Made by a program: the position numbers and the translations under genes. The notes below the pieces were generated by a model. The model did not search any database. It was not told where the DNA came from and was given only the letters and a program-made list of their open reading frames with translations. Source: Lachnospiraceae bacterium (GTDB taxonomy: Bacteria; Bacillota; Clostridia; Lachnospirales; Lachnospiraceae). Taken from it: 64,000 nucleotides of DNA. The stretch covers positions 93,642-157,641 of the forward strand of contig JAFSGE010000016.1 of the NCBI GenBank assembly GCA_017434885.1, read 5' to 3'. Of the stretch, positions 8,951-41,525 are shown one piece after another. Positions within the stretch are counted from its first letter, which is position 1. Each line of letters opens with the position of its first letter.

Positions 8951-8963
8951 AGTCTTCCTTCTC

Positions 8964-10445
8964 CTAGAACTGGAAATAAATAAACGGATTGTAAGTACCG
9001 CTCACCATCATAAAAATACATAAGACAAGCGTTACTGCCTGAATACACAAATCGCATGCCATAACCGGCAAGCTGTATTTTACTTTTTCATATTTTTCTT
9101 TCAGTAATCTTTGAACGCCTCCGGCAAATAAGATACCGATTGCAAACACAACAATCACCTTCATGGACAGGAAGGAAATTACTGTGTAGTAAGAAGTGCT
9201 TCCCGCAAACATCTGTTGCAAATAGGTAACGGCCTGAAAAACAGTGTCTGCACGGAAAAATACCCATCCTACCATCACGGCAAGCATACAATAAATCCAG
9301 TTTATGATTTTTACAGGATTTTTTTCAAGCCATTTTCCCAAAAACAGTCTTTCCAAAATCTGCAACAGGGCATACATCATTCCCCAGACAAAGAATGTGA
9401 AATTTGCGCCGTGCCAGACACCCGTTAAGAAAAACACGATAAAAATATTCAGGTAAGTCCGCTTATTTCCGCGCCTGTTTCCGCCAAGCGGTATGTAAAC
9501 ATACTCCTTAAACCATGTAGAAAGCGAAATATGCCATCTGCGCCAGAATTCCTGCACGGAAAGAGAAGTATAGGGATAGTTAAAGTTTTCTTTAAACTCA
9601 AACCCAAGCATCCTTCCGATACCGATTGCCATATCCGAATAGCCTGAAAAGTCATAATAAATCTGCAAAGTATAGGCAAGGATTCCAAGCCATGCAACAC
9701 CGGCTCCCAGTGCCGATGTTTCCAAAGACCATATCTTATCTGCCACCTCCGCAAAGGTATTTGCAAGCAATACCTTTTTGGCAAGACCATAGCAAAAACG
9801 CTTCTGTCCGCTGACAAATGTTGCAACCGTTTCTTTTCTCGTCTTTAATTGTTCTGCGATATCGCTGTACTTTACTATTGGTCCCGCAACCAACTGTGGG
9901 AAGAAGGATACATACAGGGCAAATGCAAACAGGCTTTTTTGCACCTTCGTTTTTTCATAATAAACATCAATCACATAGGACATTGCCTGAAACGTAAAGA
10001 AAGATATTCCAATCGGTAATACAATATAGGGAAGTCCCAATTCACCCGTCCCCTGCATACTGAGCATATTTTGCAATAACTGCAATGCATTTCCCTCAAA
10101 GGACAAAATCGACTCTATCACCACAACTACCATGTTAAAGTACTTGAATACAAACAAAATTCCAAGATTCAGTGCAACAACCAGTGCCAATTTCCCTTTA
10201 CGATGTGTCTTCGCATCCCCGATGATACGTCCTCCCACGTAATTGAGTGCAATGGAGCTGAGCATAATGAACAAATAGTTTACATCACCCCATGCGTAAA
10301 AAATAAGGCTTGCCACCAACAGAAAAACATTTTTCGCTCTGATTCTTGTCTCTTCCTCTTTAAATCCGGCAACAGACAAAATAAAATTACCTATTATCAC
10401 AACAGGTAAAAAAATCCAAAGAAACAGCATTGAACTAAAAAGCAT
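8964..10445 (-). CDS. MBOAT-family O-acyltransferase (AlgI/DltB type)
   Basis: A 493-residue polytopic membrane protein. MBOAT enzymes of the AlgI class move acyl, usually acetyl, groups across the membrane for polysaccharide O-acetylation. Seen: the RRWHISLSTWFKEYVYIPLGG segment, the invariant histidine in GVWHGANFTFFVWG (near residue 343) and many hydrophobic helices. A good AGGAAGG ribosome binding site precedes ATG 10445. The first gene of a two-gene operon with the DHHW/AlgX-like protein, driven by a strong promoter at 10489-10517. A second MBOAT gene lies at 32768-34144. Confidence 0.93.
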   Translation of the reverse strand: MLFSSMLFLWIFLPVVIIGNFILSVAGFKEEETRIRAKNVFLLVASLIFYAWGDVNYLFIMLSSIALNYVGGRIIGDAKTHRKGKLALVVALNLGILFVFKYFNMVVVVIESILSFEGNALQLLQNMLSMQGTGELGLPYIVLPIGISFFTFQAMSYVIDVYYEKTKVQKSLFAFALYVSFFPQLVAGPIVKYSDIAEQLKTRKETVATFVSGQKRFCYGLAKKVLLANTFAEVADKIWSLETSALGAGVAWLGILAYTLQIYYDFSGYSDMAIGIGRMLGFEFKENFNYPYTSLSVQEFWRRWHISLSTWFKEYVYIPLGGNRRGNKRTYLNIFIVFFLTGVWHGANFTFFVWGMMYALLQILERLFLGKWLEKNPVKIINWIYCMLAVMVGWVFFRADTVFQAVTYLQQMFAGSTSYYTVISFLSMKVIVVFAIGILFAGGVQRLLKEKYEKVKYSLPVMACDLCIQAVTLVLCIFMMVSGTYNPFIYFQF

Positions 10446-10488
10446 AACAGGAACCTTCCTCTTATTATATTACTGGTCATACTGTTTC

Positions 10489-10517
10489 ATTATAAGTCAA
10501 TCATTTTTATGATGCAA
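10489..10517 (-). promoter_or_regulatory. Sigma-A-type promoter for the MBOAT/DHHW operon
   Basis: On the minus strand: TTGCAT (plus 10512-10517), a 17-bp spacer, and a consensus TATAAT (plus 10489-10494). Two TGATG repeats lie exactly 22 and 33 bp upstream of the first base of the -35 hexamer. Confidence 0.72.
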
Positions 10518-10534
10518 GATATAATGTTATAAAA

Positions 10535-10550
10535 CATCAAAAATGCATCA
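10535..10550 (-). repeat. Pair of phased TGATG direct repeats upstream of the MBOAT promoter
   Basis: On the minus strand TGATGCATTTT begins at 10550 and TGATGTTTTAT begins at 10539, one helical turn (11 bp) apart. The same TGATGCA core in 11-bp steps occurs at 29841-29906 ahead of the other O-acetylation operon. A shared activator site is an inference. Confidence 0.45.
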
Positions 10551-10605
10551 AAAAACTGCACACAGCCTATTTCTGCATGCAGCTTTCCTATTCTCTATAT
10601 GTTCT

Positions 10606-11442
10606 CTATATGGTAACGATGACTCCACCGTCATTGGCATACATACTGCTCACGCCTCTGGTGTCCATAATCACAACTTTTTTACATTTGATTTTGGAAA
10701 GAATCAGCTCCTTTACACTTTCCGCCCTCTTCAGACAGTTACAGTGTGTAATCATCAGTGTCTTTTCCTCCGGCGTTACCACTTCCTTCACAACATAATC
10801 CACCATTTTGGAAAGAGCCTTTTTGGTTCCGATTGCCTGTCCGAGCTGAATAATCTCCCCGGTATCGGCACCCATCACCGGTTTAATATTTAAGGTAGTA
10901 GCAACAAACGCTTTTACTCCTGTCAGTCTTCCGTTTTTGCGAAGTGTTTCCAGATTATCAAGCACAAAGTACGTATTCATTCCGTCCCTAAATTTCGTCA
11001 GTCGTCGACAAATTTCTTCAAAATCAAGACCTTCCTCCGACAATTTTGCCGCAAGCATGGCCAGCTGTGTTTCACCGCAACTGGCAGACTGTGAATCACA
11101 TACGAAAATATTTTTATGACCGTAAGTCTCTAAATACAACTTCCTGCCGATTTCGGCACTGTTATAACTTCCGCTTAATTTTGCCGAAAGGGTGAATACA
11201 AACACATTCTCGGCATCCGTTTTGTATGCCTCCATAAATTTTTCCGGTGAAGGACAAAAGGATTTGGGACATTTTTCCGATGCCGCCACTTTGCGCAGAA
11301 AGGAACTCTGATCAAAATCTGCATCATCCATAATCACCTCTTCTCCCACTTCCAGTCCCAAAGGTACATTTTCAAATCTTACATCCCCGTAACATTCCTT
11401 GGGAAATTCACAACAGCTGTCTGCTACTATTTTATAACTCAT
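10606..11442 (-). CDS. DegV family fatty-acid-binding protein
   Basis: A 278-residue two-domain DegV protein. The family binds a fatty acid and, as FakB, presents it to the kinase FakA for incorporation into phospholipid. Seen: the N-terminal DSCCEFP, the ligand-binding segment with CPSPEKFMEAY followed by VFTLSAKLSGSYNSAEI, and the C-terminal domain TLRKNGRLTGVKAFVATTLNIKPVM. A GGAGG lies close upstream of ATG 11442. No FakA-like gene is adjacent, so the precise lipid partner is unknown. It ends 160 bp before the MBOAT start, and the MBOAT promoter lies in that gap. Confidence 0.9.
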   Translation of the reverse strand: MSYKIVADSCCEFPKECYGDVRFENVPLGLEVGEEVIMDDADFDQSSFLRKVAASEKCPKSFCPSPEKFMEAYKTDAENVFVFTLSAKLSGSYNSAEIGRKLYLETYGHKNIFVCDSQSASCGETQLAMLAAKLSEEGLDFEEICRRLTKFRDGMNTYFVLDNLETLRKNGRLTGVKAFVATTLNIKPVMGADTGEIIQLGQAIGTKKALSKMVDYVVKEVVTPEEKTLMITHCNCLKRAESVKELILSKIKCKKVVIMDTRGVSSMYANDGGVIVTI

Positions 11443-28478: not shown

Positions 28479-29699
28479 TTATTCTATAATGCAACTATCT
28501 TTTTCAGACTTCCTTAAGGTTTTCACACTCTGTATTCCTACCAACAGTAATGCCGGAAAAATCACCGCTGCAAGCACGCCCAGCTTCAAATTATCTTCTA
28601 ATGCTCCCGACACGAATCCCACAAAAGTCGGTCCGGAAGAACAGCCCATATCTCCGGCAAGTGCCAAAAATGCAAACATGGCTGTACCGCCTCGTGGAAG
28701 AGATGCCGATGCCTTGCTGAATGTCCCCGGCCACATAATTCCTACCGACAAGCCGCAAACTGCACATCCAACCAGTCCCAAGGCAGGAACCGGACATAAT
28801 GAAATCAACAGATAAGAGACAATGCAAAGAAGACTACTGCATATCATAAATTTATCCAAATTGATTTTATCACCAAACTTTCCGTAATAGGCACGGGAAG
28901 AGCCCATTAAAATAGCAAATGCCATAGGACCAACCAAATCTCCCACCGTCTTGCTGATGCCAAAGCCTTTTTCTGCAAGAGCCGAAGCCCACTGGCTGAC
29001 TGCCTGCTCGCTGGCTCCCGCACAAAGCATCATCAGCATTAGTACCCAGAATATCTTATTTGTCGCCAGTTCCTTAACTGTAAGTCCTTTATCTCCATCC
29101 TCCAAAAGCTGTGCCATGGGCACCCTTGAAAAAGAAACTGCATTCAAAAGCGGTACTACCGCCCACACTGCCGCAAGAATTTTCCAATTGGAAATCCCGA
29201 ATACAAAAAAGAATGCCGTGGAAAGAAGTACCACTCCCACATGTCCCCAACAATAAAATGAATGCAAAAGACTCATGGCCTTTTCCTTATTATCCGTAGG
29301 GCATGCCTCTACCACGGGGCTTACCAGTACTTCAAGTAAACCTCCTCCTACAGCATAAATCAGCACGGATAACAGCAATCCCACAAATGCGTCCTTGAAT
29401 AAATCCGGCAGAACGGTCAGGGAAAGTAATCCTGCTGCCGCAAACACATGAGCCATTATCATGGATGCCCGGTATCCGATTTTGTCCACAAAACCGATGG
29501 CAAGTATGTCCACCAGAAGCTGTGCCCCAAAATTAAATGTCACAAGCAAAGTGATTTTCTCAAGAGAAATTCCGTAACTGCTTTGAAACGTCAGAAACAA
29601 AAGGGGAATAAAATTATTGATAATTGCCTGCACCACATACCCTACAAAGCAGGAAATAATCGTCTTATTATATTCATTCTTATTTGCAACCGCATCCAT
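28479..29699 (-). CDS. Major facilitator superfamily transporter
   Basis: A 406-residue polytopic membrane protein with about 12 hydrophobic helices. Between helices 2 and 3 the MFS motif A is reduced to GFVDKIGYRASM; GKFGDKINLDKFM repeats it in the second half. The organisation resembles the FucP/nucleoside-sugar branch of MFS, but the substrate is not recognisable. It starts at ATG 29699 with TGAGGT upstream and is a single-gene unit ended by a terminator. Confidence 0.87.
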   Translation of the reverse strand: MDAVANKNEYNKTIISCFVGYVVQAIINNFIPLLFLTFQSSYGISLEKITLLVTFNFGAQLLVDILAIGFVDKIGYRASMIMAHVFAAAGLLSLTVLPDLFKDAFVGLLLSVLIYAVGGGLLEVLVSPVVEACPTDNKEKAMSLLHSFYCWGHVGVVLLSTAFFFVFGISNWKILAAVWAVVPLLNAVSFSRVPMAQLLEDGDKGLTVKELATNKIFWVLMLMMLCAGASEQAVSQWASALAEKGFGISKTVGDLVGPMAFAILMGSSRAYYGKFGDKINLDKFMICSSLLCIVSYLLISLCPVPALGLVGCAVCGLSVGIMWPGTFSKASASLPRGGTAMFAFLALAGDMGCSSGPTFVGFVSGALEDNLKLGVLAAVIFPALLLVGIQSVKTLRKSEKDSCIIE

Positions 29700-29840
29700 A
29701 TTATGTAAACCTCAATTCAACTTATTCTTACGCAAAAAAATGTGACATCGTGCTTTCCGGATTTTACAAAATGATGTCCGCTTCGCGCAACGAGTAGTAT
29801 AGCATGTTTCTTTTCACAAAGCTATCCATAGCCTGAAAAA

Positions 29841-29906
29841 TGATGCAACTTTGATGCAAAAATTATGGAAATCTGATGCAAATTCTATGCAAATTTGATG
29901 CTTTAG
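29841..29906 (+). repeat. Six phased 11-bp TGATGCA-type repeats upstream of the exosortase operon
   Basis: Exactly 11-bp steps: TGATGCAACTT (29841), TGATGCAAAAA (29852), TTATGGAAATC (29863, degenerate), TGATGCAAATT (29874), CTATGCAAATT (29885), TGATGCTTTAG (29896). The last copy forms the -35 hexamer. Equal spacing of one helical turn is the layout bound by OmpR/PhoB-type response regulators, but the regulator here is unknown. Confidence 0.65.
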
Positions 29907-29923
29907 CCTTTTATGCTTATCTT
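29895..29923 (+). promoter_or_regulatory. Promoter for the VIT/VWA-exosortase operon
   Basis: TTGATG (29895-29900), a 17-bp spacer and TATCTT (29918-29923). The -10 is poor (4 of 6), as expected for an activated promoter fed by the upstream repeats. Confidence 0.5.
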
Positions 29924-29959
29924 ACAAACATTACAAAAGCAACAAAGAGGTGTATCAAA

Positions 29960-31990
29960 ATGAAAACAAAACGAATTTTTCTCTGCATTCTTTCCGCTAT
30001 CCTTCTGTTTACCGCACAGACTCCCGTAGTTTTTGCAAAAGCACAGAATGACGCCGAAGAAGACAAAACCTGCGCTCCTTATTTTTATATTGAAAATGCA
30101 GACCCTGAGACTGACAGCTTTCCTTTAAAGGAAACTGATGTTGTGACCAACATTAACGGTTCCATCGCTGATACCTATGTCACTCAGGTCTATGCAAATG
30201 AGGGAAGTAAGGCAATCAATGCCCGTTACATCTTCCCCACCTCCACAAAAGCCTCTGTGCACGGCATGACCATGACTGTAGGAAATCAAAAGGTAACCGC
30301 AAAAATCCAAGAAAAAGAAGAAGCAAAAAAAACTTATGAAAGTGCAAAAAGCGAAGGCAAAAGTGCTTCCCTGCTAGAACAAAAAACCCCCAATGTCTTT
30401 ACCATGGATGTTGCCAATATTATGCCCGGTGAAACCGTCAGCATTGAGCTTCACTACACTGAATTAATCAGTCCCACGGAAGGAACTTATCAGTTTGTAT
30501 TCCCTACCGTAGTAGGTCCCCGCTATGTAAAGAATGAAGAAGCAAGAAATTTTTCCGAAGACAATGACTGGCTGGCAAGTCCCTATCTGGAAGAAGGCAC
30601 AGACCCTGTTGGAAAATACAATATTCAGGTTAATCTTTCCACAGGTGTTCCCATCACTGGGCTTTCCAGTAAATCCCACAAAATTAACATTGACTGGGAC
30701 GACAACAGTATCGCTCACATTTCCCTGCAAGATGCTTCCGATTATGCAGGAAACCGTGACTTTATTCTGGATTATAAGTTAACGGGACATACCATTTCCT
30801 CCGGTCTTACCATGCAGACAGGAGAATCGGAAAACTTTTTTATGCTTACCGTGCAGCCTCCTGAGCACTATAAACCGAAAGAAATTGTTCCCAGAGAATA
30901 TATTTTTGTACTGGATGTTTCCGGCTCCATGGACGGCTACCCTTTAGATACCGCAAAAAAAATGATTACCACCTTAGTATCGGATTTGAACAAAAACGAC
31001 AGCTTTAACCTGATTTTATTTTGCAACGGTAATACCATTCTTTCTCCCAAGTCGCTGCCTGCCACCGAAAAGAATATTTCCAAAGCCATGAAGCTGATTA
31101 ACCAACAGCACGGCTATGGAGGCACAGAACTTGACAATGCCATTCAGGCGGCCCTTGACATGCCCGCTGATGACAATGTTGCAAGAAGTATCGTTATCCT
31201 CACAGACGGCTATATTTCCGGCGAAACGGAAACCTTCGACCTGATTTGCCAGAATCTGGACGAAGCCTCCTTTTTTCCCTTCGGCATCGGAAGCAGCGTG
31301 AACCGTTATCTGATTGAAGGAATTGCAAGCGCCGGTCAGGGTGAAGCCTTTATTGTAACTGATGAAGCAGATGCATCCGAAACTGCACAGCGATTCCGCA
31401 CTTATATGGAAGCCCCTCTCCTTACCGATATCGAAATCACCTATGACGGGCTGGATGTTTACCATGTAGAGCCGGTAACCCCTTCCACCCTTTACGCCCA
31501 AAAACCCATTATCCTGTTCGGAAAGTGGCGGGGCGAGGCAAAAGGAAACGTTCATATCACCGGAAAGACCGGTAAAAAGGATTTTGTACTGGATATTCCG
31601 GTTTCTGAAGAATGCATTGATAAAGCAAATACTGCTTTACCCTATTTGTGGGCACGTAAGCGCATAGAACGATTAACAGACTTTAGCACCTACAAAGACA
31701 ATCCTTCCATCCGTGAGGAAGTAACCAGACTTGGTCTTACCTACAGTATGGCAACGTCCTACACCTCCTTCGTTGCCGTACTGGAAACCATCGTCAATCC
31801 TGATGCCAATGCCACGGATGTAGACCAACCAAACGCACTGCCCCTGCATGTATCCAATCTGGCAATCGGCAGCGGCTATACCGCAGGAAGTGAACCCGGA
31901 ACCCTTCTGATGATATTGGGCGGCATCGCTGTCGCACTGAAAGGCACTTGGAAACAAAAGAAAAAAAGATGTACTGCATTACCCTACTAA
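29960..31990 (+). CDS. Secreted VIT + von Willebrand A protein with PEP-CTERM-like C-terminus
   Basis: 676 residues. A signal peptide (about 1-26, ending VVFA) precedes a VIT domain (about 40-165) with ARYIFPTSTKASVHGMTM and AKIQEKEEAKKTYE. A VWA domain follows, with the MIDAS motif DVSGSMDG near residue 319 and a conserved TDG. The last 33 residues begin SEPGTLLMILGG, continue with a hydrophobic helix and end in KQKKKR: the tripartite layout of PEP-CTERM exosortase substrates. The next gene encodes an exosortase, 14 bp downstream, so this is its probable substrate. ATG 29960 is preferred, with AGAGGTG upstream; the frame is open 28 codons earlier. Confidence 0.9.
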   Translation: MKTKRIFLCILSAILLFTAQTPVVFAKAQNDAEEDKTCAPYFYIENADPETDSFPLKETDVVTNINGSIADTYVTQVYANEGSKAINARYIFPTSTKASVHGMTMTVGNQKVTAKIQEKEEAKKTYESAKSEGKSASLLEQKTPNVFTMDVANIMPGETVSIELHYTELISPTEGTYQFVFPTVVGPRYVKNEEARNFSEDNDWLASPYLEEGTDPVGKYNIQVNLSTGVPITGLSSKSHKINIDWDDNSIAHISLQDASDYAGNRDFILDYKLTGHTISSGLTMQTGESENFFMLTVQPPEHYKPKEIVPREYIFVLDVSGSMDGYPLDTAKKMITTLVSDLNKNDSFNLILFCNGNTILSPKSLPATEKNISKAMKLINQQHGYGGTELDNAIQAALDMPADDNVARSIVILTDGYISGETETFDLICQNLDEASFFPFGIGSSVNRYLIEGIASAGQGEAFIVTDEADASETAQRFRTYMEAPLLTDIEITYDGLDVYHVEPVTPSTLYAQKPIILFGKWRGEAKGNVHITGKTGKKDFVLDIPVSEECIDKANTALPYLWARKRIERLTDFSTYKDNPSIREEVTRLGLTYSMATSYTSFVAVLETIVNPDANATDVDQPNALPLHVSNLAIGSGYTAGSEPGTLLMILGGIAVALKGTWKQKKKRCTALPY

Positions 31991-32004
31991 AAGGAATATT
32001 AACC

Positions 32005-32712
32005 ATGACCACTACCTTTTTACATTATGATAAAAAAGAATTTCTGAAACAAAACCGCATTTATTATCTGACCGGCATTGCCATTTTTCTTACAATGAAG
32101 CTCCTTTTCAGAAACGCCGATGCAAATGCCCTCAGATGGATGCTTGCACCAACATCCCGACTGGTCAGTTTCTTAAGCGGGGTTCCCTTTCTGTGGGAAT
32201 CCCATTTAGGATACGTCAGCCATGACCTGCGTTTTGTTATTGCAGCCTCCTGCAGTGGCATTAATTTTATGCTGATCACCCTTATGATGTTAATATTTTC
32301 ATTTTCCAACCGCTTTAAAAGTTTCCGTTTTGTCGGAATCAGTATTGCAATTTCCTATGTTTATACGGTTTCTGTCAACAGTCTGCGGATTTTGATTGCA
32401 ATTTATCTTCCGGTTTTTTTTGACCGTTATGGTCTATGGACAAACCGAATAACACCGGATAAACTTCATACAATTATCGGTATTGTTGTATTTTTTTCCG
32501 CATTATTGTTACTCTATTCTCTTGTGGACAAACAATCCGGCCGTTTTACCCTGAGTCCGGAACACCGGCCACATTTCGGAAACTTTCCGGCTTATCATAC
32601 CCTTTGGGTACCGCTTTTCTGGTATTTGGCAGTGGTACTCGGCATTCCTTTTCTTAACAAAATCAGTAACATTTTTTTAAGAAATTTCCTCAATCTGTTT
32701 CTTGTGGATTAG
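32005..32712 (+). CDS. xrtK: Exosortase (XrtK-like), transpeptidase-type membrane enzyme
   Basis: 235 residues with about 6-7 hydrophobic helices. The exosortase catalytic triad is visible: Cys83 in AASCSGINFML, Arg128 in VNSLRILIAI and His155 in DKLHTIIG. Exosortases cleave a C-terminal signal such as PEP-CTERM and are thought to transfer the protein to a surface carrier. They occur mostly in Gram-negative bacteria (as archaeosortases in archaea), which makes it notable here. The subtype XrtK is from memory and less certain than the family. ATG 32005 follows AAAGGA; it starts 14 bp after the substrate gene. Confidence 0.87.
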   Translation: MTTTFLHYDKKEFLKQNRIYYLTGIAIFLTMKLLFRNADANALRWMLAPTSRLVSFLSGVPFLWESHLGYVSHDLRFVIAASCSGINFMLITLMMLIFSFSNRFKSFRFVGISIAISYVYTVSVNSLRILIAIYLPVFFDRYGLWTNRITPDKLHTIIGIVVFFSALLLLYSLVDKQSGRFTLSPEHRPHFGNFPAYHTLWVPLFWYLAVVLGIPFLNKISNIFLRNFLNLFLVD

Positions 32713-32767
32713 ATAGGGCAGTGATAGAATAAAATAGAAAAGACAAAAGAAAAGACAGGAATCAAAA

Positions 32768-34144
32768 ATGGTCAATTTTGCAGGTTTGGAATTTATCTTT
32801 CGGTTTTTACCGGTTTTCTTAGTAATATATTATATTTTTTCCGAAAAATACAGGGATACCATATTGCTGCTGGGCAGCCTGCTTTTTTATGCAGCAGGTG
32901 AACCCAGGTTTTTTCTGCTGTTTATCGCTCTTACAGGCATCAATTACCTGATGGGCCGAAAAGGAAATCAGGATATCCAATCCTTTGCCATGCACAAATG
33001 GCAAAAGCGCCGACGCAAAAAATGGATGATTACGGCAGTTACACTGGATATTCTGGTGCTGATAGCATTTAAGTGCTTAAGTACTTTTGTTGACAGTACT
33101 CTTTTGCCTATGGGGCTTAGCTTTTATCTGTTCAAAATGATTTCCTGGCAAGTGGATATGTATCGCAGTGTTATTGCAGAAGATGTCAGCTTCCGCTCCG
33201 TAGCCCTATACTTTTCCCTGTTTCCCCAAGTGGTTTCCGGTCCTATCATGCGCTATGACGACGGAGACTTTGCCTTAGGACGCACTTACAGTCCCGAGCG
33301 GTTTGAAAAAGGCCTTTTTTTCTTTATTTCCGGTCTTGGCATGAAAGTGCTCCTTGCAGACCGACTGGCTATTTTGTGGAATGATTTACAGATGATAGGC
33401 TTTCAAAGTATCTCTACGCCCCTTGCATGGCTTGGCGCATACAGCTATTCTTTGCAGTTATACTTTGATTTCTGGGGATACTCTCTAATGGCATCCGGTA
33501 TTATGATGATGTTGGGTTTTGACTTTATCGAAAATTTTAACCACCCTTACGCGTCAAAAAGCATCGGAGAATTTTACAGAAGATGGCATATCACTCTGGG
33601 TAGTTTTTTCAGGGATTATGTTTATATTCCCATGGGTGGCAGCAGGTGTTCCGGCGGAAAGCTGGCACTGAATCTGGCGTTTGTCTGGATTCTGACCGGA
33701 ATCTGGCACGGAAACGGCCTTAACTTTATCATTTGGGGCGCCATTTTGGGATTGCTTATTATTTCCGAGAAACTCATCTACGGCAAATTACTGGCAAAAG
33801 TACCGCTAATCGGTCATCTTTATGTTCTTTTGCTGGTTCCGTTAACCTGGGTGGTATTTGCCATTACGGATTTGGGTCAGCTTGCCGTCTATTTCGGCAG
33901 ACTGTTTCCGTTTATCGGCGGCTTCGGGCTTGCCGTTAATGAAATGGATATTGTGAAATACTCACAAATGTACGGACCTCTCATCATTTTGGGAATGATA
34001 TTGTGCATTCCCAAGGTCTGCGGCAAAATTTCGAAGCATCGAAATCATCCGCTTGTCCTTTTAGGTCTTACAGTTGTCTTTTGGTGGTCAATTTATTATT
34101 TATCAAACAATGCGGGAAATCCGTTTATGTACTTTGCATTTTAG
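32768..34144 (+). CDS. MBOAT-family O-acyltransferase (second copy)
   Basis: 458 residues, polytopic. MBOAT motifs: EFYRRWHITLGSFFRDYVYIPMGG and the invariant histidine in GIWHGNGLNFIIWG (near residue 313). The role is as for the copy at 8964-10445: export of acyl groups for glycan O-acetylation. The two copies differ clearly in sequence, so each probably serves its own partner and glycan. It starts 55 bp after the exosortase, with AGACAGGAATC upstream of ATG 32768, and is 8 bp before the SGNH gene. Confidence 0.92.
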   Translation: MVNFAGLEFIFRFLPVFLVIYYIFSEKYRDTILLLGSLLFYAAGEPRFFLLFIALTGINYLMGRKGNQDIQSFAMHKWQKRRRKKWMITAVTLDILVLIAFKCLSTFVDSTLLPMGLSFYLFKMISWQVDMYRSVIAEDVSFRSVALYFSLFPQVVSGPIMRYDDGDFALGRTYSPERFEKGLFFFISGLGMKVLLADRLAILWNDLQMIGFQSISTPLAWLGAYSYSLQLYFDFWGYSLMASGIMMMLGFDFIENFNHPYASKSIGEFYRRWHITLGSFFRDYVYIPMGGSRCSGGKLALNLAFVWILTGIWHGNGLNFIIWGAILGLLIISEKLIYGKLLAKVPLIGHLYVLLLVPLTWVVFAITDLGQLAVYFGRLFPFIGGFGLAVNEMDIVKYSQMYGPLIILGMILCIPKVCGKISKHRNHPLVLLGLTVVFWWSIYYLSNNAGNPFMYFAF

Positions 34145-34152
34145 GAGCAGAA

Positions 34153-35265
34153 ATGAAACTGATAAAGAAATGTTTTTTATTTTTCAAAAAATGTCCTTTG
34201 TTTTTTGTGTTAATTATTACCGGTATTCTTTTTACCTCGGTTTCCCTATGGGGTATGGGAACGATTTACCGCGAACAGGAATATAACCCATGGAAAGCAC
34301 CTGTTTTGTCGGTAGCCTTTACCGGACTGAAAGAAGAAATTTATCCCTGGCAGCTGTGGAGCGCGCCTTCCGATTCTGCAGAAAATAAAATACCGGAGGA
34401 ATCAGCCGGCACGGAAACTCTTCCCGAAACAGACGGTCCGAAGTGGGGCGAGGATCAGGGCATCCTACCTCCATCCTATCAATCACCCACACCGGTTATC
34501 ACGCCTACTCCTGTGGCAACTGCCACTCCGGCAGCGGCTGCTCCGACTGCTACTGTTACTCCTGCACCGTCCCCTACTCCGTATGTGCGTCCAACGCCCT
34601 TAAGAGCCAGCACACAAAGCGAATACGCCAATCACATTTCGGCAGATATTTACGGAGATATCGGGGTATTGCATGCAGCATCCTATGACTTTATTGAAGT
34701 GGATGAAAGTTATTTCGATGACGCCCTGTTTATCGGCGATTCCCGAACGGTAGGTCTTCACGATTACACGGATTTATCAGAACACGGCACGTTCCTGTGC
34801 GAAACAGCTCTGACCATTCATAAAGTGTTAAAGCATGACTTCAAAGGACACGGAACCGTGGAAGAAATACTCGCCGCAAATGATTACGGCAAAATTTATC
34901 TTATGGTGGGCATCAACGAACTGGGAACAGGAACCACCGAAGACTTCCTGAAAAAATACACGGAAGTGGTAGATACCTTGCATGAGCTGGAACCGGATGC
35001 CAAAATCTTTATCCAGGCTAACATGCGTGTAACAGACAAACTCCATGCAAAAGATGCCATTTTTAATAACAATAATATCAATGCCAGAAACAATGCCATC
35101 GCCACACTGGCAGACAATGTAAACATCTTTTACATTGATGTCAATGAAGTCATCTGTAACGAGCAGGGAAATCTTTCAGAGGAATATACCTACGACCAGA
35201 TTCATCTGCTTGGCGTTTACAATGATTTATGGAAACAGTTTTTAATGACTCGCGGTGTAACATGA
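34153..35265 (+). CDS. Membrane-anchored SGNH-hydrolase-like protein with Pro/Thr linker
   Basis: 370 residues: a basic start, one membrane segment (about 14-36), a Pro/Thr/Ala-rich linker (about 112-155, repeated TPTP/TATP), then an SGNH domain. Readable motifs are LFIGDSRTVGLHDY (Ser near residue 196), MVGINELGTGT (block III) and YDQIHLLGVYNDLW (Asp and His). By analogy to AlgX/PatB partners, it would transfer acetyl groups delivered by the MBOAT protein 8 bp upstream onto a surface glycan. The linker is typical of wall-spanning proteins. AGGAGC precedes ATG 34153. Confidence 0.87.
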   Translation: MKLIKKCFLFFKKCPLFFVLIITGILFTSVSLWGMGTIYREQEYNPWKAPVLSVAFTGLKEEIYPWQLWSAPSDSAENKIPEESAGTETLPETDGPKWGEDQGILPPSYQSPTPVITPTPVATATPAAAAPTATVTPAPSPTPYVRPTPLRASTQSEYANHISADIYGDIGVLHAASYDFIEVDESYFDDALFIGDSRTVGLHDYTDLSEHGTFLCETALTIHKVLKHDFKGHGTVEEILAANDYGKIYLMVGINELGTGTTEDFLKKYTEVVDTLHELEPDAKIFIQANMRVTDKLHAKDAIFNNNNINARNNAIATLADNVNIFYIDVNEVICNEQGNLSEEYTYDQIHLLGVYNDLWKQFLMTRGVT

Positions 35266-35269
35266 ATAA

Positions 35270-35324
35270 AAACCTCCGTATGAGAGAAACTAATGAAAAA
35301 TTCATCTCATCCGGAGGTTTTTTT
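35270..35324 (+). terminator. Strong terminator overlapping the spoVAD ribosome binding site
   Basis: AACCTCCG (35271-35278) pairs with CGGAGGTT (35312-35319), continued after one mismatch by ATGAGA/TCTCAT (35280-35285/35305-35310), and followed by seven T (35318-35324). The GGAGG of spoVAD (35313-35317) is the 3' arm of the stem, so transcripts from upstream would terminate or carry a hidden ribosome binding site. Confidence 0.85.
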
Positions 35325-36365
35325 ATGGAAAAAGAACATGGTGCCATTTTTGAGCAAGGTAAACAAAGTATTAAAATCCCCATTCCGATTTATATCCGCG
35401 CCAGTGCATCAGTAGCAGGTACCAAGGAAGGGGAAGGTCCCTTTGGCGACTTGTTTGATGTGGTAGGTATTGACGATAAATTCGGATGTGATACCTGGGA
35501 AGAAGCAGAAAGTACATTGCAAAAAGAAGCTTTGCAAATGGCAATCGGAAAAGCAGGTCTGAAAAACGAAGATATCCGTTTTCTTTTTGCCGGTGATCTC
35601 CTTGGTCAATCTATTGCCAGCAGTTTCGGCCTCGGCGGCTTTCACATCCCTCTTATGGGAATGTACGGAGCCTGCTCCACCTGTGGATTGTCCTTATCTG
35701 CGGCAACTATTGTGATTGCCGGTGGCATGGCGAGGTATACCGCCTGTGTTACTTCCAGTCACTTTGCCAGTGCCGAAAAAGAATTTCGTTTTCCCTTAGC
35801 CTATGGTAACCAAAGACCACTTTCCTCCACCTGGACAGTGACCGGCAGCGGTGCTTTTGTAGTCAGCAGTGAAAAAAGTGACTGCGACCGTGCTATGATT
35901 ACCGGACTGACAATCGGCAAGATTATGGATTTCGGTCTGAAAGATTCCATGAACATGGGTGCCTGTATGGCTCCCGCTGCTGCCGATACCATTTACACAC
36001 ATATGATGGATTTTGGTACAACGCCTGAGGACTACGACAAGATTATTACCGGTGACCTTGGCTATGTTGGACAAAAAGCCTTATTTGACATGATGCGGGA
36101 AAAAAATCTGGATATTTCAAAGGTGCATATGGACTGCGGCATCGAAATCTATGACAGCAGTCAGGATGCCCATGCAGGCGGCTCCGGCTGCGGTTGCAGT
36201 GCTGTAACACTTTCTGCTTACATTCTGAAACAACTGGAGGAAGGTATCTGGAAACGGGTCTTATTTGTTCCCACAGGTGCACTTCTGAGCAAAACCAGCT
36301 TCAACGAAGGACAAAGTATCCCCGGAATTGCTCATGGGGTAGAGCTTATAAGCTGCAAGCAGTAA
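35325..36365 (+). CDS. spoVAD: Stage V sporulation protein AD
   Basis: 346 residues with a thiolase-like fold; part of the SpoVA complex that moves Ca-dipicolinate into the developing spore and out at germination. The sequence matches SpoVAD in IPIYIRASASVAGTKEGEGPFGDLFD, GLGGFHIPLMGMYGACSTCGLSLS, ASSHFASAEKEFRFPL-like TSSHFASAEKEFRFPLAYGNQRP, and HAGGSGCGCSAVT. ATG 35325 is preceded by GGAGG; the frame is open further upstream but overlaps the terminator. Followed by spoVAC after 62 bp. I see no clear sigma-G promoter directly upstream. Confidence 0.95.
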   Translation: MEKEHGAIFEQGKQSIKIPIPIYIRASASVAGTKEGEGPFGDLFDVVGIDDKFGCDTWEEAESTLQKEALQMAIGKAGLKNEDIRFLFAGDLLGQSIASSFGLGGFHIPLMGMYGACSTCGLSLSAATIVIAGGMARYTACVTSSHFASAEKEFRFPLAYGNQRPLSSTWTVTGSGAFVVSSEKSDCDRAMITGLTIGKIMDFGLKDSMNMGACMAPAAADTIYTHMMDFGTTPEDYDKIITGDLGYVGQKALFDMMREKNLDISKVHMDCGIEIYDSSQDAHAGGSGCGCSAVTLSAYILKQLEEGIWKRVLFVPTGALLSKTSFNEGQSIPGIAHGVELISCKQ

Positions 36366-36427: not shown

Positions 36428-36910
36428 ATGACTTCAAATAATAACTCCCAATCTTCTCTTGAAAAAGATTATGCCAAATATATAAAATCCATTACTCCCA
36501 CTCATAACCTGTTTATACAGATGGTTCGAGCCTTCCTTGTCGGCGGAAGTATCTGCATTATCGGTCAATTTCTTTTAAACTTTGCATCAAATACCCTTGG
36601 AATGGACAAGGAAACCGCGGGCAGCTTCTGCTCCCTGATTCTTGTCTTTCTCAGCGTTCTTTTTACCGGTTTCGGCCTATATGCTCCCATTGTCAAATTC
36701 GGCGGTGCCGGTGCACTGGTTCCCATCACCGGATTTGCCAACTCCGTAGCCTCTCCTGCCATTGAATACAAAAAAGAAGGACAGGTTTTTGGCGTAGGTT
36801 GCAAAATCTTTACCATTGCCGGTCCAGTCCTTCTCTATGGAATCTTCAGTTCCTTTGTTCTCGGTGTTGTTTACTATTTATTCATCTTATATACAGGGTC
36901 AGCAGGATAG
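36428..36910 (+). CDS. spoVAC: Stage V sporulation protein AC
   Basis: 160 residues with about four hydrophobic helices, homologous to SpoVAC: NLFIQMVRAFLVGGSICIIGQFLLNF, LFTGFGLYAPIVKFGGAGALVPITGFANSV and PAIEYKKEGQVFGVGCKIF. In B. subtilis SpoVAC forms a mechanosensitive channel for dipicolinate. Most Clostridia have spoVAC before spoVAD; here the order is D then C, and no spoVAE-type gene follows. The ribosome binding site is weak. Its last 37 bp overlap the end of the opposite DUF6062 gene. Confidence 0.93.
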   Translation: MTSNNNSQSSLEKDYAKYIKSITPTHNLFIQMVRAFLVGGSICIIGQFLLNFASNTLGMDKETAGSFCSLILVFLSVLFTGFGLYAPIVKFGGAGALVPITGFANSVASPAIEYKKEGQVFGVGCKIFTIAGPVLLYGIFSSFVLGVVYYLFILYTGSAG

Positions 36911-37635
36911 CCGCCTTTCAGTTTCTGCATACCGCGCTGTATGGCATCCTTGGAATTTTTCCAGTCTGCATCCTTATTGCGGTAATCAAACTTTTCCACC
37001 AGCCAGGATACGTCTTCCTGCAGTCTTTCCATGTTCTTTTCCATCAGCTCAAACATGGCAGGATAAAACTCTTTCTTTTCCTTGTCATTCATTCTGCTCT
37101 CGGAGGCCTCACACAGGTCTCCGAAGTGATGCAGACAAAAGCCCTTGCTGTTTTTAATTTTCTCCCTGAACTCTGCATCCTTTTTGTACATAAAAAAGAA
37201 GGTATCCATATATCTCTCATAGGTATCCTCAAAGCGCTTACAGATATAACAGGACTTTTCCTTCTCCTCAACCCAAATGCCAATTGGGTTCTGTCTGGTA
37301 CTGTTCTTTTTGAATTTTCCCATGAGAGTTGACTTGTTCGGTGTAAATGCTTTAAACTGGCTTTTCATCTCATAATTCATCTGCATATAATGAGTCTTCA
37401 AAATCCATGCATTTCCCAGTGTATTTCCGTAATCAAACATTTTCTTGAAGTGATTTCTGCAGAATCCTGCTTTATCCGTTGCCTCACGCACATCGCTCTC
37501 CATATAGGAGGAACCGCTTCCCAATGCAAAGTCAAGCAAATCCTGCTCTACCTCACGCTCTATAAAGCAAAAAGGACACTCATCATTTGCATTGACTGCA
37601 TCATTCAACGGAATAGTATATAATGTTTCTTTCAT
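36874..37635 (-). CDS. DUF6062 family protein
   Basis: 253 residues, soluble. It starts MKETLYTIPLNDAV and carries cysteine pairs that could bind metal: CPFC near residue 21, then GFCRNHFKKMFDYG, CYICKRFEDTYERYMD and GFCLHHFGDL. The repeated C-x-x-C / C-x-x-H pattern suggests two zinc-binding halves. I associate it with DUF6062 from memory; function unknown. It lies 21 bp after the TetR regulator gene, so they may share a transcript. The last 37 bp overlap the 3' end of spoVAC, tail to tail. Confidence 0.78.
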   Translation of the reverse strand: MKETLYTIPLNDAVNANDECPFCFIEREVEQDLLDFALGSGSSYMESDVREATDKAGFCRNHFKKMFDYGNTLGNAWILKTHYMQMNYEMKSQFKAFTPNKSTLMGKFKKNSTRQNPIGIWVEEKEKSCYICKRFEDTYERYMDTFFFMYKKDAEFREKIKNSKGFCLHHFGDLCEASESRMNDKEKKEFYPAMFELMEKNMERLQEDVSWLVEKFDYRNKDADWKNSKDAIQRGMQKLKGGYPADPVYKMNK

Positions 37636-37656
37636 ATCAGTTTTCCTTTCTGTCTT

Positions 37657-38265
37657 TTATTCTTCTGCATAAGACATCTTCTTAAGCAATCCAAGATATC
37701 CTTTTACCTCTTCCCCGAACAACTCCGGCTGAAATGCTCCTGCATAAAACTGTTCTTCTAAAAGTCCGTTCAAGGTATACTGCATCATTTTGGTCAGCTT
37801 ATCAATGTCAATCCCCTGCTTAAACCGGGTAATATCTGCCCGTCGCATAATCTGTCCAAGCTGATGGGACAGCACTCCTCTCTTTTCCTCTGTTGCCACA
37901 AGTGCCTCACTGACATCTTCTTTTTTACTTTCGTTCAAAAACAGCAGCATGTACGGATAGTTGTGCATCACCTGCAGCTGTGCCTGCCAAATCTGCCATA
38001 CCAGTTCAAAATAGTCTGTTTCCCCCTTACTGACTGTTGTAGACAATTCCAGCATCATGTAACGCACACTGTAGTCATAGACAAAGGAATACAAACCGAT
38101 TTTGCTGATAAAGTAATGAAACAGCAACCCCTTACTGATGCTTGCCTCCCGCACAATATCATCTGTGCTGGCATGCTCATAGCCCTTCATGGCAAACAAT
38201 TTCAGTGCCGCATTTATCATCCGGTCCTGCTTTTCTTTTTTTAAGTCAAAAAACTTATCGTTCAT
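37657..38265 (-). CDS. TetR/AcrR-family transcriptional regulator
   Basis: 202 residues. A standard TetR helix-turn-helix occupies about residues 11-58: QDRMINAALKLFAMKGYEHASTDDIVREASISKGLLFHYF. The C-terminal part is an all-helical ligand/dimer domain with no recognisable ligand. ATG 38265 lies after GGGGTG; the frame is open 20 codons earlier without a good ribosome binding site. Divergent from the acidic membrane protein gene at 38507, with a possible operator between. The next gene on the same strand is DUF6062. Confidence 0.88.
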   Translation of the reverse strand: MNDKFFDLKKEKQDRMINAALKLFAMKGYEHASTDDIVREASISKGLLFHYFISKIGLYSFVYDYSVRYMMLELSTTVSKGETDYFELVWQIWQAQLQVMHNYPYMLLFLNESKKEDVSEALVATEEKRGVLSHQLGQIMRRADITRFKQGIDIDKLTKMMQYTLNGLLEEQFYAGAFQPELFGEEVKGYLGLLKKMSYAEE

Positions 38266-38293
38266 ATTTTCACCCCATACCTGTTTTTTGCTA

Positions 38294-38323
38294 TTGACTT
38301 TTATAGTCGAATTTAAATATAAC
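38294..38323 (+). promoter_or_regulatory. Candidate promoter and operator between the TetR gene and the acidic protein gene
   Basis: TTGACT (38294-38299), an 18-bp spacer and TATAAC (38318-38323) point toward the plus strand. Over the -35 lies a short inverted repeat, TTGACT then AGTCGAA (38305-38311), the kind of site a TetR dimer could use. Repression by the neighbouring TetR is speculative. Confidence 0.4.
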
Positions 38324-38506
38324 ACAGATTTTTTTTTACTTCAATTGTCTTTACATTATTTTCCGTATTTTATTTGCTTTTCACAAATTTCTTTTATAAA
38401 ATTTTATTGAAATTTTATTTATATTCTCTTTTCTTTTTCACAAAATAGTATTAAGATAGAATGTGACAGACAATCTATAAATACATTCCCGAAAGGAGCA
38501 TTTCAT

Positions 38507-39082
38507 ATGTCAAAGAAAGTTGGAAAATTATTACTCCTCACCGCTGTAGTCGGCGCTGCCGCTTATGGCACATACGCTTACCTTCAGAAGAAAGAGCAGC
38601 CCGCTAACGAACCTATAGATGATGATGCCGATGATGATTTTGATGATTTCAGCGAAGATTTAGACGAAGACCTGACTACCTCCAAGGAACGCTCCTATGT
38701 TCCTTTAAACCTTAATTTTGAAAAAGCAGAAGCAATCGCAACCGAAGCATTTCAGAAAGCCAAAGAAGTGATTTCCGATTCTGTACAGCAGGTAAAGGAA
38801 ACTGTGAAATCCGTTGCCGATTCTCAGGGGTACCATACAAGCTTCACCGATCTTACCGCTGCGGCAAAGGGCGCTGCTGATGACGTGGTTGCCGATGTAG
38901 AAGCAGTTACCGAAGATCTTGCAGAAAGTGTTGCAGATACCGCAGAAGAAATAAAAGACGGTGCAGCAGAAGTCGTTGAAAATGTAGAAGCTGCGGCAGA
39001 AGGTGTAGCAGAAGCTACTGCTTCTCTTGCCGATGAAGCAAATGAAACCGTTGAGGAATTTTTTGATGACGAAGAGGTTTAA
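38507..39082 (+). CDS. Acidic, Ala/Glu-rich helical membrane-anchored protein
   Basis: 191 residues with no named family that I recognise. A short N-terminal membrane helix (about 6-26) resembles YtxH-type proteins. It is followed by a very acidic segment (DDDADDDFDDFSEDLDED), a middle basic/acidic helix, and about 100 residues of near-heptad repeats (ADDVVADVEAV, TEDLAESVADT, AEEIKDGAAEV, VENVEAAAEGV) with the 11-residue periodicity seen in LEA-like or apolipoprotein-like amphipathic helices. A membrane- or cell-envelope-associated structural or stress role is plausible. Terminated by a hairpin at 39111. Confidence 0.8.
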   Translation: MSKKVGKLLLLTAVVGAAAYGTYAYLQKKEQPANEPIDDDADDDFDDFSEDLDEDLTTSKERSYVPLNLNFEKAEAIATEAFQKAKEVISDSVQQVKETVKSVADSQGYHTSFTDLTAAAKGAADDVVADVEAVTEDLAESVADTAEEIKDGAAEVVENVEAAAEGVAEATASLADEANETVEEFFDDEEV

Positions 39083-39110
39083 AGTCTCAACTAAATAGAA
39101 AGACATTATT

Positions 39111-39147
39111 AAGGGAGATACCGGATACCGATATCTCCCTTTTATTC
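39111..39147 (+). terminator. Rho-independent terminator after the acidic protein gene
   Basis: AAGGGAGATA (39111-39120) pairs perfectly with TATCTCCCTT (39132-39141), then TTATTC. The T-tract is short. Confidence 0.75.
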
Positions 39148-39195
39148 ATCCTGTCCTGTTCTCTGTACACTGCTCACAGTATCTATGCCACCTTT

Positions 39196-40668
39196 TTATA
39201 AATACTCCTTCCACGCCTCCTTAAGAAGTGTAATTCCCCTGTTGATATCATCTTTTTGCAAAGCACCATACCCCAGAATTACAGTAGACTGATACTGCTT
39301 ATTCAGCGCTCCCTGTTCGGAAGATGCCTCCGCAATGCCGTAAGCCTTAATTCCGACATCTTTCGCCGCCCGAATTAATTCTTTGGCAGTCACATTCTTT
39401 TTAGAAGTCAGTAAAATATGTAATCCTGCATTTTCCCCCGAAAAAAGAAATGCATGTTCAAACTCTTTCATTTCCTCCAACAGGTAATCATGCTTTTCCT
39501 TATATATTTTTCGCATTTTATTCAAATACCGCTCAAAATACCCGTCAGCAATAAACTCATTCAAAATACGCTGATCAATTCGTGAAACGGTAGAAGCATG
39601 AAATGCAAAAAGCTCCTTGTACTGCTTAAGCAGCGCCTGCGGCAGCACCATATAAGCCACTCTGATTGCCGGTGCAATGGACTTAGAAAAAGTCCCCATG
39701 TAAATCACCTTTCCGTTTCTGTCCGATGCCTGCAATGCCGGTATAGGCTTCCCTTTGTAGCGGAACTCACTGTCATAGTCATCCTCTATCAAATAGCGGT
39801 CTGCATTCTGCTCCGCCCATCGCAAAAGCTCCAGACGCCTTCCGATTGGCATGACTACTCCGGTCGGATATTGATGCGAAGGCATTACATACGCAATATC
39901 TGCACCTGATGCAAAAAGTGCATCTTCTCTCATCCCGTTTTCATCCATGGGAAGTAATTCTATCCCATAATGAAAAGAACAAAACATTCGATAAGCTCGC
40001 AAATAAGTAGGATTTTCCATGGCAACAGTCCTTTGTCTGCCAAGGATTTTCTCTAGCAGCATCAGCAGATAATCATGTCCCGCGCCTACGATAATCTGCT
40101 CCGGCTCACAGTTTACCCCTCTTGCCGAATGCAAATACCTGCCTATGGTACGCCTAAGCTCATAATCCCCCTGAGCATCTCCCAATGCAAACATTTCACT
40201 GTTGGCATCCACCAGTATATCCTTCGTAATCTTTTTCCATGTGGCAAAAGGAAAATCTTTCATACTGATAGCATAGGGAGAAAAATCATAAATAATTTTT
40301 TGCTGTTTTTCGCTCTCCTTCCCCTTCTGTGCCATCACCGAGTCGCCCAGCCCTCTATCCGGTATTCTATCTGCACGTCTTCCCGCAGTATTTCCTGCCT
40401 CTGTCAAATCAAGCACATTATCGATGCTACAAACAAAATATCCCCTATAGGGTCTTGATTCAATATAGCCCTCTGCCAAAAGCTGACTGTATGCCGCATC
40501 CACTGTACTTCGTGCAACCTGTAGATGTTCTGCCAAAGAACGCGTTGAGGGAAGCCTCTCATTTCTTTGAAGCTTCCCTGTCCTGATTTCCTGTTTAATA
40601 TACTCATAAATTTGCCGATACAGGCAACTGCCTGCATCGGCCTTTAATTCAATTGCCAATTCAATCAT
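39196..40668 (-). CDS. MocR/PdxR-type regulator (GntR HTH + class I aminotransferase domain)
   Basis: 490 residues. Residues 1-75 are a GntR winged helix (LYRQIYEYIKQEIRTGKLQRNERLPSTRSLAEHLQVARSTVD). The rest is an aminotransferase-fold domain with VGAGHDYLLMLLEKIL, ENPTYLRAYRMF, EDDYDSEFRYKG and the PLP lysine in GTFSKSIAPAIR. MocR proteins control genes of vitamin B6 or amino-acid metabolism in response to PLP or a metabolite; no PLP synthesis genes are adjacent, so the target is unknown. Only 2 bp after the DUF2225 gene. Confidence 0.92.
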   Translation of the reverse strand: MIELAIELKADAGSCLYRQIYEYIKQEIRTGKLQRNERLPSTRSLAEHLQVARSTVDAAYSQLLAEGYIESRPYRGYFVCSIDNVLDLTEAGNTAGRRADRIPDRGLGDSVMAQKGKESEKQQKIIYDFSPYAISMKDFPFATWKKITKDILVDANSEMFALGDAQGDYELRRTIGRYLHSARGVNCEPEQIIVGAGHDYLLMLLEKILGRQRTVAMENPTYLRAYRMFCSFHYGIELLPMDENGMREDALFASGADIAYVMPSHQYPTGVVMPIGRRLELLRWAEQNADRYLIEDDYDSEFRYKGKPIPALQASDRNGKVIYMGTFSKSIAPAIRVAYMVLPQALLKQYKELFAFHASTVSRIDQRILNEFIADGYFERYLNKMRKIYKEKHDYLLEEMKEFEHAFLFSGENAGLHILLTSKKNVTAKELIRAAKDVGIKAYGIAEASSEQGALNKQYQSTVILGYGALQKDDINRGITLLKEAWKEYL

Positions 40669-40670
40669 AA

Positions 40671-41525
40671 TTAATGTGCATTTTTCTCTTTAATCTTTGC
40701 AACCAAAATTTCTTTTACTTCTCTCGCCTTGTCTTTCATTCTGCTGTTGGCAGTAGGTGAAACGATAATCTGACTGACTAACTTGGAAGCCACATCCAAC
40801 TTATCGTACTCCGTAGCAAGCACTGCTATCAGATAGTCCACTGTAAGTTCATCCATTCCGCACATAGGGAAGTTTTCGGATTGGATTGCTGACATAAAAC
40901 CTTCCAATGCATTCTTTAAATATTCATCGGACTGTGCTTTTGCTTCCTTCTGCTTCTGTGCATAATCAGGCAGACTGCTGTCCATATTTTCCGCCATACT
41001 GCGAAGCAACCATCCCGCCTTTAAGCAAATATAAGCTTTTTCGCTTGTTTTACCCATTTTGACAATGGTATTGGCAAGACAAAGCTGATATCTTTCAAGC
41101 GCTTCTTCGTAGGTATAGGTATCTTTTTCTTCTATGTGCCCTTTATAAGATGCACAGATTTTTTCTTTTACCAGCTTTATCTGTGTGGGTGCAAGTCCCT
41201 GGAAAAATCTGGTAAGCACAGCATATCCGCAGTGAGGACATACCAAAACATCATATTTTAAAGGTTCAATTCCTTCATAAACCGGACGTAAATCCATATC
41301 TGTTTTTACGAGTTTTACTTTTCCGCTCTTTAAGGTTTTTCCTTTAAACTGCTTGTAACATACAGGACACTCATAAGTCTTGTCAAACAACACTTCTTCT
41401 TCCTTAATTTCAGGCTTTGCAGGTTCTTTGTTTTCCTCTTTTTTTTCTTCGGGCTGTTCATACAAATTCATGCCCTGCAGATTTCCCAAACCTAATTTTT
41501 CCAATCCTGATAATAATCCGGCCAT
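40671..41525 (-). CDS. DUF2225 family protein
   Basis: 284 residues. An N-terminal treble of cysteines, YECPVCYKQFKGKTLKSGKV and VLVCPHCGYAVLTRFF, is the DUF2225 hallmark and likely binds zinc. The C-terminal 170 residues look like TPR-type helices (ERYQLCLANTIVKMG, EKAYICLKAGWLLRSMAE, YLKNALEGFMSAI). Function unknown; widespread in Firmicutes. AAGGAGG precedes ATG 41525. It lies 29 bp after glnS. Confidence 0.88.
   Translation of the reverse strand: MAGLLSGLEKLGLGNLQGMNLYEQPEEKKEENKEPAKPEIKEEEVLFDKTYECPVCYKQFKGKTLKSGKVKLVKTDMDLRPVYEGIEPLKYDVLVCPHCGYAVLTRFFQGLAPTQIKLVKEKICASYKGHIEEKDTYTYEEALERYQLCLANTIVKMGKTSEKAYICLKAGWLLRSMAENMDSSLPDYAQKQKEAKAQSDEYLKNALEGFMSAIQSENFPMCGMDELTVDYLIAVLATEYDKLDVASKLVSQIIVSPTANSRMKDKAREVKEILVAKIKEKNAH

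Follow-up and report, generated by a model that had tools for sequence, protein, structure and literature searches.

The window analyzed here is a 64,000-nucleotide stretch of a Lachnospiraceae bacterium genome (GCA_017434885.1, contig JAFSGE010000016.1, positions 93,642 to 157,641) that encodes a protein with VIT and VWA domains and, directly after it, exosortase K (XrtK). These two form a dedicated enzyme-cargo pair that ranges from Lachnospiraceae to Acidobacteriota, because in 79/80 public loci the VIT/VWA gene is the immediate same-strand upstream neighbor of XrtK, and because it adjoins XrtK in 7/7 Acidobacteriota genomes with XrtK over the cut-off, coincides with it in exactly three of 299 genomes of the window's family, and is accompanied by exactly one sorting-tail match at E <0.001 per genome in 16/16 genomes (5/5 and 11/11). 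We give a probability of roughly 0.55 to a two-gene, single-cargo system in which, by prediction, XrtK cleaves the cargo within its SEP-type tail and would couple the newly formed C-terminus to a small acceptor, a membrane lipid being the likeliest. An earlier note on this DNA, made from the sequence alone, had described four genes in tight series (29960-35265), the further two encoding an MBOAT acyltransferase and an SGNH protein, as a dedicated one-substrate sorting system of a Gram-positive genome. All four genes are present, on the plus strand, and the single substrate is borne out by the locus and tail counts.

Exosortase K and its VIT/VWA cargo

The cargo contains, according to Pfam, a VIT domain (PF08487, residues 56-166) and a VWA domain (residues 315-474). 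Its start was set at ATG 29960, a choice that, judged by eye, agrees with both a ribosome-binding site and a signal peptide; an alternative longer frame, from 29876, starts within a repeat array. The best NCBIfam match is TIGR03788, the model of the marine proteobacterial sortase target protein (444.6 bits, profile positions 2-615), which does not reach the cut-off of that model (551.65). When a profile built from seven cargos was used to score 7996 proteins, 7821 matched, and 116 of the 120 matches listed have SEP near the C-terminal end, the remaining four having NEP, TEP, TEP, and an SEP farther inside.

The C-terminus of the window cargo consists of GYTAGSEPGT, a helix, and KKKR. The SEPGT-helix-basic end recognized in the earlier note is therefore real, but its "GT" is not the conserved part of the tail, because Gly directly follows the motif in only 45 of 84 tails, a set chosen by the presence of SEP or AEP. 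Four residues ahead of the motif there is a Tyr in 77 of these tails, and the position directly ahead is occupied by Gly (59 tails) or Tyr (24 tails) in most. The tails of seven Acidobacteriota cargos have SEP (four), PEP (two), or DEP (one). The PEP-CTERM model TIGR02595, a short model whose presence in the scanned library is unconfirmed, has no listed match on the cargo at E up to 1. At one locus (L043, 9546-9998) the cargo is reduced to its C-terminal end with the tail, ahead of an intact-looking XrtK.

The window XrtK matches TIGR04287 (NCBIfam) with 117.9 bits, the curated cut-off being 55, and its AlphaFold2 model has a mean pLDDT of 86.9. A protein search returned 42 exosortases, four of them already labeled exosortase K (Lachnospiraceae, Clostridium, or Suilimivivens), and because NCBI records already carry the name "exosortase K [Lachnospiraceae bacterium]", an exosortase in Lachnospiraceae is not new as such. 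The Cys83/Arg128/His155 triad was named correctly in the earlier note; it is unchanging in 42/42 aligned rows (the window and 41 of the 42 exosortases found, the near-identical P0005 being excluded) and likewise in the 84/84 rows of the tree alignment. The window's own genome contains one exosortase-family match and two sortase matches, both on other contigs, and no match to the EpsH exosortase model TIGR02602 at E up to 0.001.

The loci were obtained by searching genome contigs from one conserved peptide and retaining the best 80 of 85 confirmed loci. Their enzymes are distinct in sequence (80/80), although some are near copies (L047 and L048), and L015 is a contig of genome G274. Record titles name Lachnospiraceae in 60 loci, Clostridiaceae in two, Syntrophaceae in one (L077), and Chloracidobacteriaceae in one (L079); the 16 without a named family include two Acidobacteria (L083 and L084) and one metagenome-assembled genome (MAG) labeled Gastranaerophilales (L029), whose enzyme groups among Lachnospiraceae and which may be a mis-binned contig. 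Among the 79 adjoining VIT/VWA genes, 77 were assigned by a fixed rule and two by eye: L077, where the XrtK start had been set too early, and L062, where cargo and exosortase share one 918-aa reading frame (7928-10684), which could reflect either a genuine gene fusion or an error in the sequence of the MAG. The gap between cargo and XrtK, taken from the first in-frame starts, has a median of 7 bases and is at most 60 in 69/77, and the VIT/VWA frame exceeds 500 aa in 76/80 loci, the fused L062 included.

Co-occurrence was scored in 299 genomes of the window's family, 295 of its order, and 247 of the phylum of G580, the Acidobacteriota genome from which L084 comes. XrtK is over the cut-off in three family genomes (G000, G107, and G274), and a full-length VIT/VWA protein (E <1e-100) is found in the identical three; the next VIT/VWA match in the family has an E of 2.4e-22 and covers the VWA portion only. 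A fourth XrtK match, in G079, was judged spurious. The seven Acidobacteriota genomes with XrtK over the cut-off, out of 247, include G580. The tail profile was built from 53 tails and includes the residues ahead of the motif; beyond the single significant match in each genome, further matches have an E of 0.2 or worse, and it is this absence of a second match that carries the weight, because many of these genomes supplied tails to the profile. Distances between XrtKs and between cargo bodies correlate with r 0.85 (74 pairs), and the residue ahead of SEP requires two changes on the XrtK tree for 24 versus 55 rows, a count made with no shuffle control.

Families of neighboring genes were compared for 85 loci, of which 80 were counted, the gene caller having dropped XrtK in five; at least 4 kb of sequence 3' of XrtK is available in 66/80 loci. 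XrtK is counted in 79 loci and the cargo in 77; the next most frequent family occurs in 13 loci at scattered places, while other neighbors that keep their position form small groups of 4 to 10 loci and are seemingly housekeeping genes. Among the 40 commonest neighbor families of the 80 loci, inspected by eye from their first residues, no recurrent glycan or exopolysaccharide gene was seen.

Relation to known sorting systems

NCBI pairs the XrtK model TIGR04287 with TIGR04286, the model of MSEP-CTERM proteins. Like that system, the window has an enzyme over the cut-off, a dedicated adjoining gene, and a tail composed of x-E-P, a helix, and a basic end, and MSEP-CTERM cargos also have a VIT domain, though as a weak match. 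Unlike these 803-947-aa proteins, the window cargo has 676 aa and belongs with the VIT/VWA proteins of TIGR03788 type. A TIGR04286 search of the window's own genome gave no match, and the controls likewise gave none. XrtK-like matches occur in 8/295 order genomes, three with the VIT/VWA cargo (G000, G533, and G504), four with an MSEP-CTERM-like neighbor (G345, G490, G323, and G336; that of G490, cut by a contig end, was assigned by eye), and one with neither (G467). MSEP-CTERM partners lie beside XrtK in the window's own order (L094, L096, and L097), and three of the four MSEP-CTERM-like neighbors, when scanned, matched TIGR04286 at E <1e-200 and VIT weakly. More distant XrtKs pair with MSEP-CTERM proteins, and the window XrtK with a type of cargo that is served by class GN sortases in Proteobacteria. 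The G467 match is a sub-threshold XrtK-like frame with no cargo gene nearby (L093, 8829-9581), possibly a decaying copy.

In the class GN sortase/TIGR03788 system, a homologous VIT/VWA cargo (about 30% identical) is also followed directly by its own sorting enzyme, as in the three annotated plasmid regions viewed (Rhizobium and Novosphingobium). There, however, the cargo ends in LPQTG or LPQTA (two tails translated) and the enzyme is a sortase, whereas the window combines an x-E-P tail with an exosortase. One cargo family is therefore served by sortases in some phyla and by exosortases in others. The section of PMC3237569 on VIT/VWA tails already notes such swapping within this family, listing LPXTG tails with a dedicated sortase, GlyGly-CTERM (rhombosortase), and PEP-CTERM in Verrucomicrobium spinosum; the latter is the one exosortase example in that section, which mentions no adjoining XrtK, Lachnospiraceae, or Acidobacteriota. 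Since tail swapping has been reported, the XrtK pair in these phyla is a variant of a known principle. On a plasmid of Pontibacter sp. G13 (L138, 3998-8692), a SusC/RagA TonB-linked outer membrane protein carries a fused VIT/VWA protein that shares 43.6% identity with the window cargo, and no sorting tail was noticed at the junction of the two parts; this fusion is perhaps another way of holding the VIT/VWA module at the surface.

The PEP-CTERM/EpsH system, as outlined in the relevant parts of PMC1569441, resembles the window in its tripartite tail and its membrane enzyme with Cys, Arg, and His. It differs in having a median of eight cargos, as opposed to one cargo and Gram-positive hosts for the XrtK pair. 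The same parts of PMC1569441 describe classical PEP-CTERM as confined to outer-membrane bacteria with exopolysaccharide genes and absent from Firmicutes; the XrtK pair departs from this, as Lachnospiraceae have no outer membrane and, as far as the commonest neighbor families inspected by eye indicate, there is no accompanying exopolysaccharide locus.

Proposed attachment reaction and its alternatives

In the proposed mechanism, the cargo would be exported through its predicted signal peptide and retained in the membrane by the C-terminal helix with its basic end. With Arg128 and His155 assisting, Cys83 of XrtK would attack the cargo close to x-E-P to form a thioester, as in the archaeosortase model, and an amine-bearing acceptor would then free the cargo, which would end up anchored outside the membrane. 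The pairing, the gene order, the co-occurrence, the single significant tail per genome, and the unchanging triad are observed; the cleavage reaction, the acceptor, and the surface location are predicted. A lipid acceptor is favored because, in the speculative ArtA scheme given in part of PMC7157517, the cleaved protein stays on the active-site cysteine and is then passed to a lipid through its ethanolamine, and because no recurrent glycan gene was seen by eye among the commonest neighbors of the 80 loci. As the window's own genome has one exosortase-family match besides two sortases, an acceptor differing from that of a sortase is plausible.

Acidobacteriota and Lachnospiraceae have different envelope types. 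That the pair is common to both, and that inspection of the commonest neighbors of the 80 loci revealed no recurring gene for glycan or exopolysaccharide synthesis, count against the idea that XrtK links its cargo to a glycan of the surface or cell wall and not to a lipid. This idea draws on the first-described exosortase system, which accompanies exopolysaccharide genes (PMC1569441, in the parts cited above), and we regard it as unlikely, if worth keeping in mind. XrtK could also cut the tail only, so that the protein is released and not re-anchored. Cleavage alone could account for both tail and triad, but cleavage is coupled to transfer in sortases and in the archaeosortase model (the passages concerned in PMC1569441 and PMC7157517), and a signal peptide without a C-terminal tail would be a simpler route to release, which leaves this alternative rather improbable.

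Several observations weigh against lipid attachment of a single cargo by XrtK, the reading that we prefer. Classical PEP-CTERM goes together with exopolysaccharide and an outer membrane (PMC1569441, as above), a setting that is at odds with a monoderm cell. The locus scan is skewed toward close relatives, because it was seeded by a conserved peptide and only the best loci were retained. The refuting case named in the earlier note, homologous exosortases with no adjacent tail-bearing VIT/VWA protein, occurs in five of the eight order genomes with an XrtK-like match (four MSEP-CTERM-like, one neither), and only three have this cargo. Even among the retained loci, L037, L043, and L082 carry parts of the cargo gene only, and L033 has an XrtK with no VIT/VWA gene in the 1.5 kb of upstream sequence. 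The tail profile could overlook unrelated proteins bearing the motif alone. With the cargo body controlled for, tail and enzyme have a partial correlation of 0.19 (a value reached in 0 of 999 permutations), which is exceeded by that of tail and body given the enzyme (0.35); the tail-enzyme correlation may arise via shared descent. Finally, the C-terminal end of its kin is absent from the window XrtK.

An exosortase that acts on numerous substrates and comes with an extensive glycan locus is a difficult object for chemical study. The XrtK-VIT/VWA pair is present in the named strains Acetatifactor muris DSM 23669 and Eisenbergiella tayi DSM 26961, so that the question of what exosortases attach their substrates to becomes testable with one enzyme and one protein.

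Neighboring genes, local inversion, and upstream repeats

Table 1. Features of the sorting pair and its surroundings, in window coordinates.
Feature	Position	Strand	Remarks
Tandem array, six 11-bp units, 5' of VIT/VWA gene	29841-29901	+	likely regulator-binding array
VIT/VWA cargo gene	29960-31990	+	676 aa; signal peptide predicted by eye
Sorting tail of cargo	31874-31987	+	GYTAGSEP, hydrophobic helix, basic end; SEP codons 31889-31897
Exosortase K gene (xrtK)	32005-32712	+	235 aa; TIGR04287
XrtK triad codons	Cys83 32251-32253; Arg128 32386-32388; His155 32467-32469	+	
3' end of xrtK	32666-32712	+	inversion breakpoint; aligns to MBOAT leader of nearest relative (L005)
MBOAT acyltransferase gene	32768-34144	+	458 aa; neighbor, judged outside sorting unit
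SGNH/GDSL protein gene	34153-35265	+	370 aa; neighbor, judged outside sorting unit
Inverted repeat and T run 3' of SGNH gene	35268-35322	unassigned	likely terminator

The two genes after xrtK encode proteins with MBOAT and GDSL domains (Pfam), the former resembling DltB below the cut-off (NCBIfam). In the earlier note they formed an O-acetylation pair within a four-gene operon, which may modify the glycan or lipid carrier. The tight series on the plus strand suits this proposal, as does the lack of a listed terminator-like site between xrtK and the MBOAT gene, and both genes also occur within 4 kb of XrtK in L005. However, L005 is the only such case among the 80 other loci (66 of them with at least 4 kb 3' of XrtK), and there the two genes are convergent, on the opposite strand; L049 has MBOAT alone near XrtK. 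SGNH relatives (E <1e-10) are found in 110/299 family genomes, only three of these 110 having XrtK over the cut-off, and in G107 and G274, which both have XrtK, the best SGNH is on a different contig. Moreover, G264, a genome of the same genus, has no XrtK match, yet contains both genes next to a spoVAC-like gene, oriented as in L005.

The DNA of the window and L005 is collinear at 28520-31909 and 36458-40672, and between these, window positions 32666-36355 (the MBOAT-SGNH-spoVAD block) are reversed relative to L005 14514-10815, with weak alignment around 34142-34561. The simplest reading is that the window, rather than L005, carries the inverted block. Based on the 1/80 loci, the presence of both genes without XrtK in G264, and the inverted block with its breakpoint in xrtK, MBOAT and SGNH are probably mere neighbors placed by a local inversion, outside the sorting unit and probably not needed for sorting. 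We therefore do not retain the O-acetylation pair as a member of the unit, and a four-gene operon is highly improbable.

As window positions 32666-32800 align with the MBOAT leader of L005, the left breakpoint lies inside xrtK and the final xrtK codons derive from that leader, so that XrtK ends 21 residues beyond Pro215, compared with at least 39 in the other aligned VIT-type rows except L072. The inversion might thus have taken a C-terminal helix and left a damaged enzyme in a decaying pair. However, four MSEP-type XrtKs have only 0-4 residues beyond the position of Pro215, which suggests that this stretch is dispensable in parts of the family; a 99% identical 235-aa protein represents 18 member sequences, and the triad and the columns unchanging in 42/42 rows are retained. 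Damage is for these reasons very improbable. At the right breakpoint, a reverse search revealed nothing clearly recognizable as the former 3' end of xrtK.

Read by eye, positions 32702-32730, ahead of MBOAT and inside the L005-aligned part, contain TTGTGG, 17 bases, and TAGAAT, a possible promoter of MBOAT/SGNH's own; the promoter scan does not include this site. The likely terminator after the SGNH gene is absent from the consensus terminator scan listing, that scan having a loop limit of 8.

The array upstream of the VIT/VWA gene has exact TGATGC at 29841, 29852, 29874, and 29896, the units at 29863 and 29885 being degenerate. The array is a likely binding site for a regulator; regulators of the PhoB/OmpR type typically have 11-bp repeats arranged head to tail. 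Under a fixed rule, by which the window array scores 2, at least two in-phase units are found in 51/79 VIT upstream regions versus 17/1020 upstream regions of other genes in the same loci. Such arrays are seen in L075, L063, L058, and L005, among others. At least four units occur in 22/79, with a maximum of nine, in one; the sole non-VIT upstream region with four units is that of a VIT fragment (L082). The remaining 28/79, three Acidobacteriota included, score one or none.

Ten whole genomes contain 33 exact repeat pairs versus five with a reversed control pattern. Among 14 repeat places viewed, several are 5' of genes with exported-looking products (by eye), and others are intragenic, for example in a glycogen synthase-like gene. 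We tentatively suggest, as a doubtful but coherent extension, that XrtK and its cargo are a portable module of monoderm and diderm bacteria that lipid-anchors one VIT/VWA protein outside the cell with no exopolysaccharide pathway and displaced the class GN sortase as the enzyme serving this cargo family, and that the Lachnospiraceae copies might be under an envelope regulator that recognizes the tandem 11-bp repeats and controls a few further exported proteins as well. G264, which is without XrtK, also has 11-bp arrays. Repeat pairs elsewhere include one in G000 on contig 25 near 244876 (L208) and one in G264 on contig 32 near 63990 (L207).

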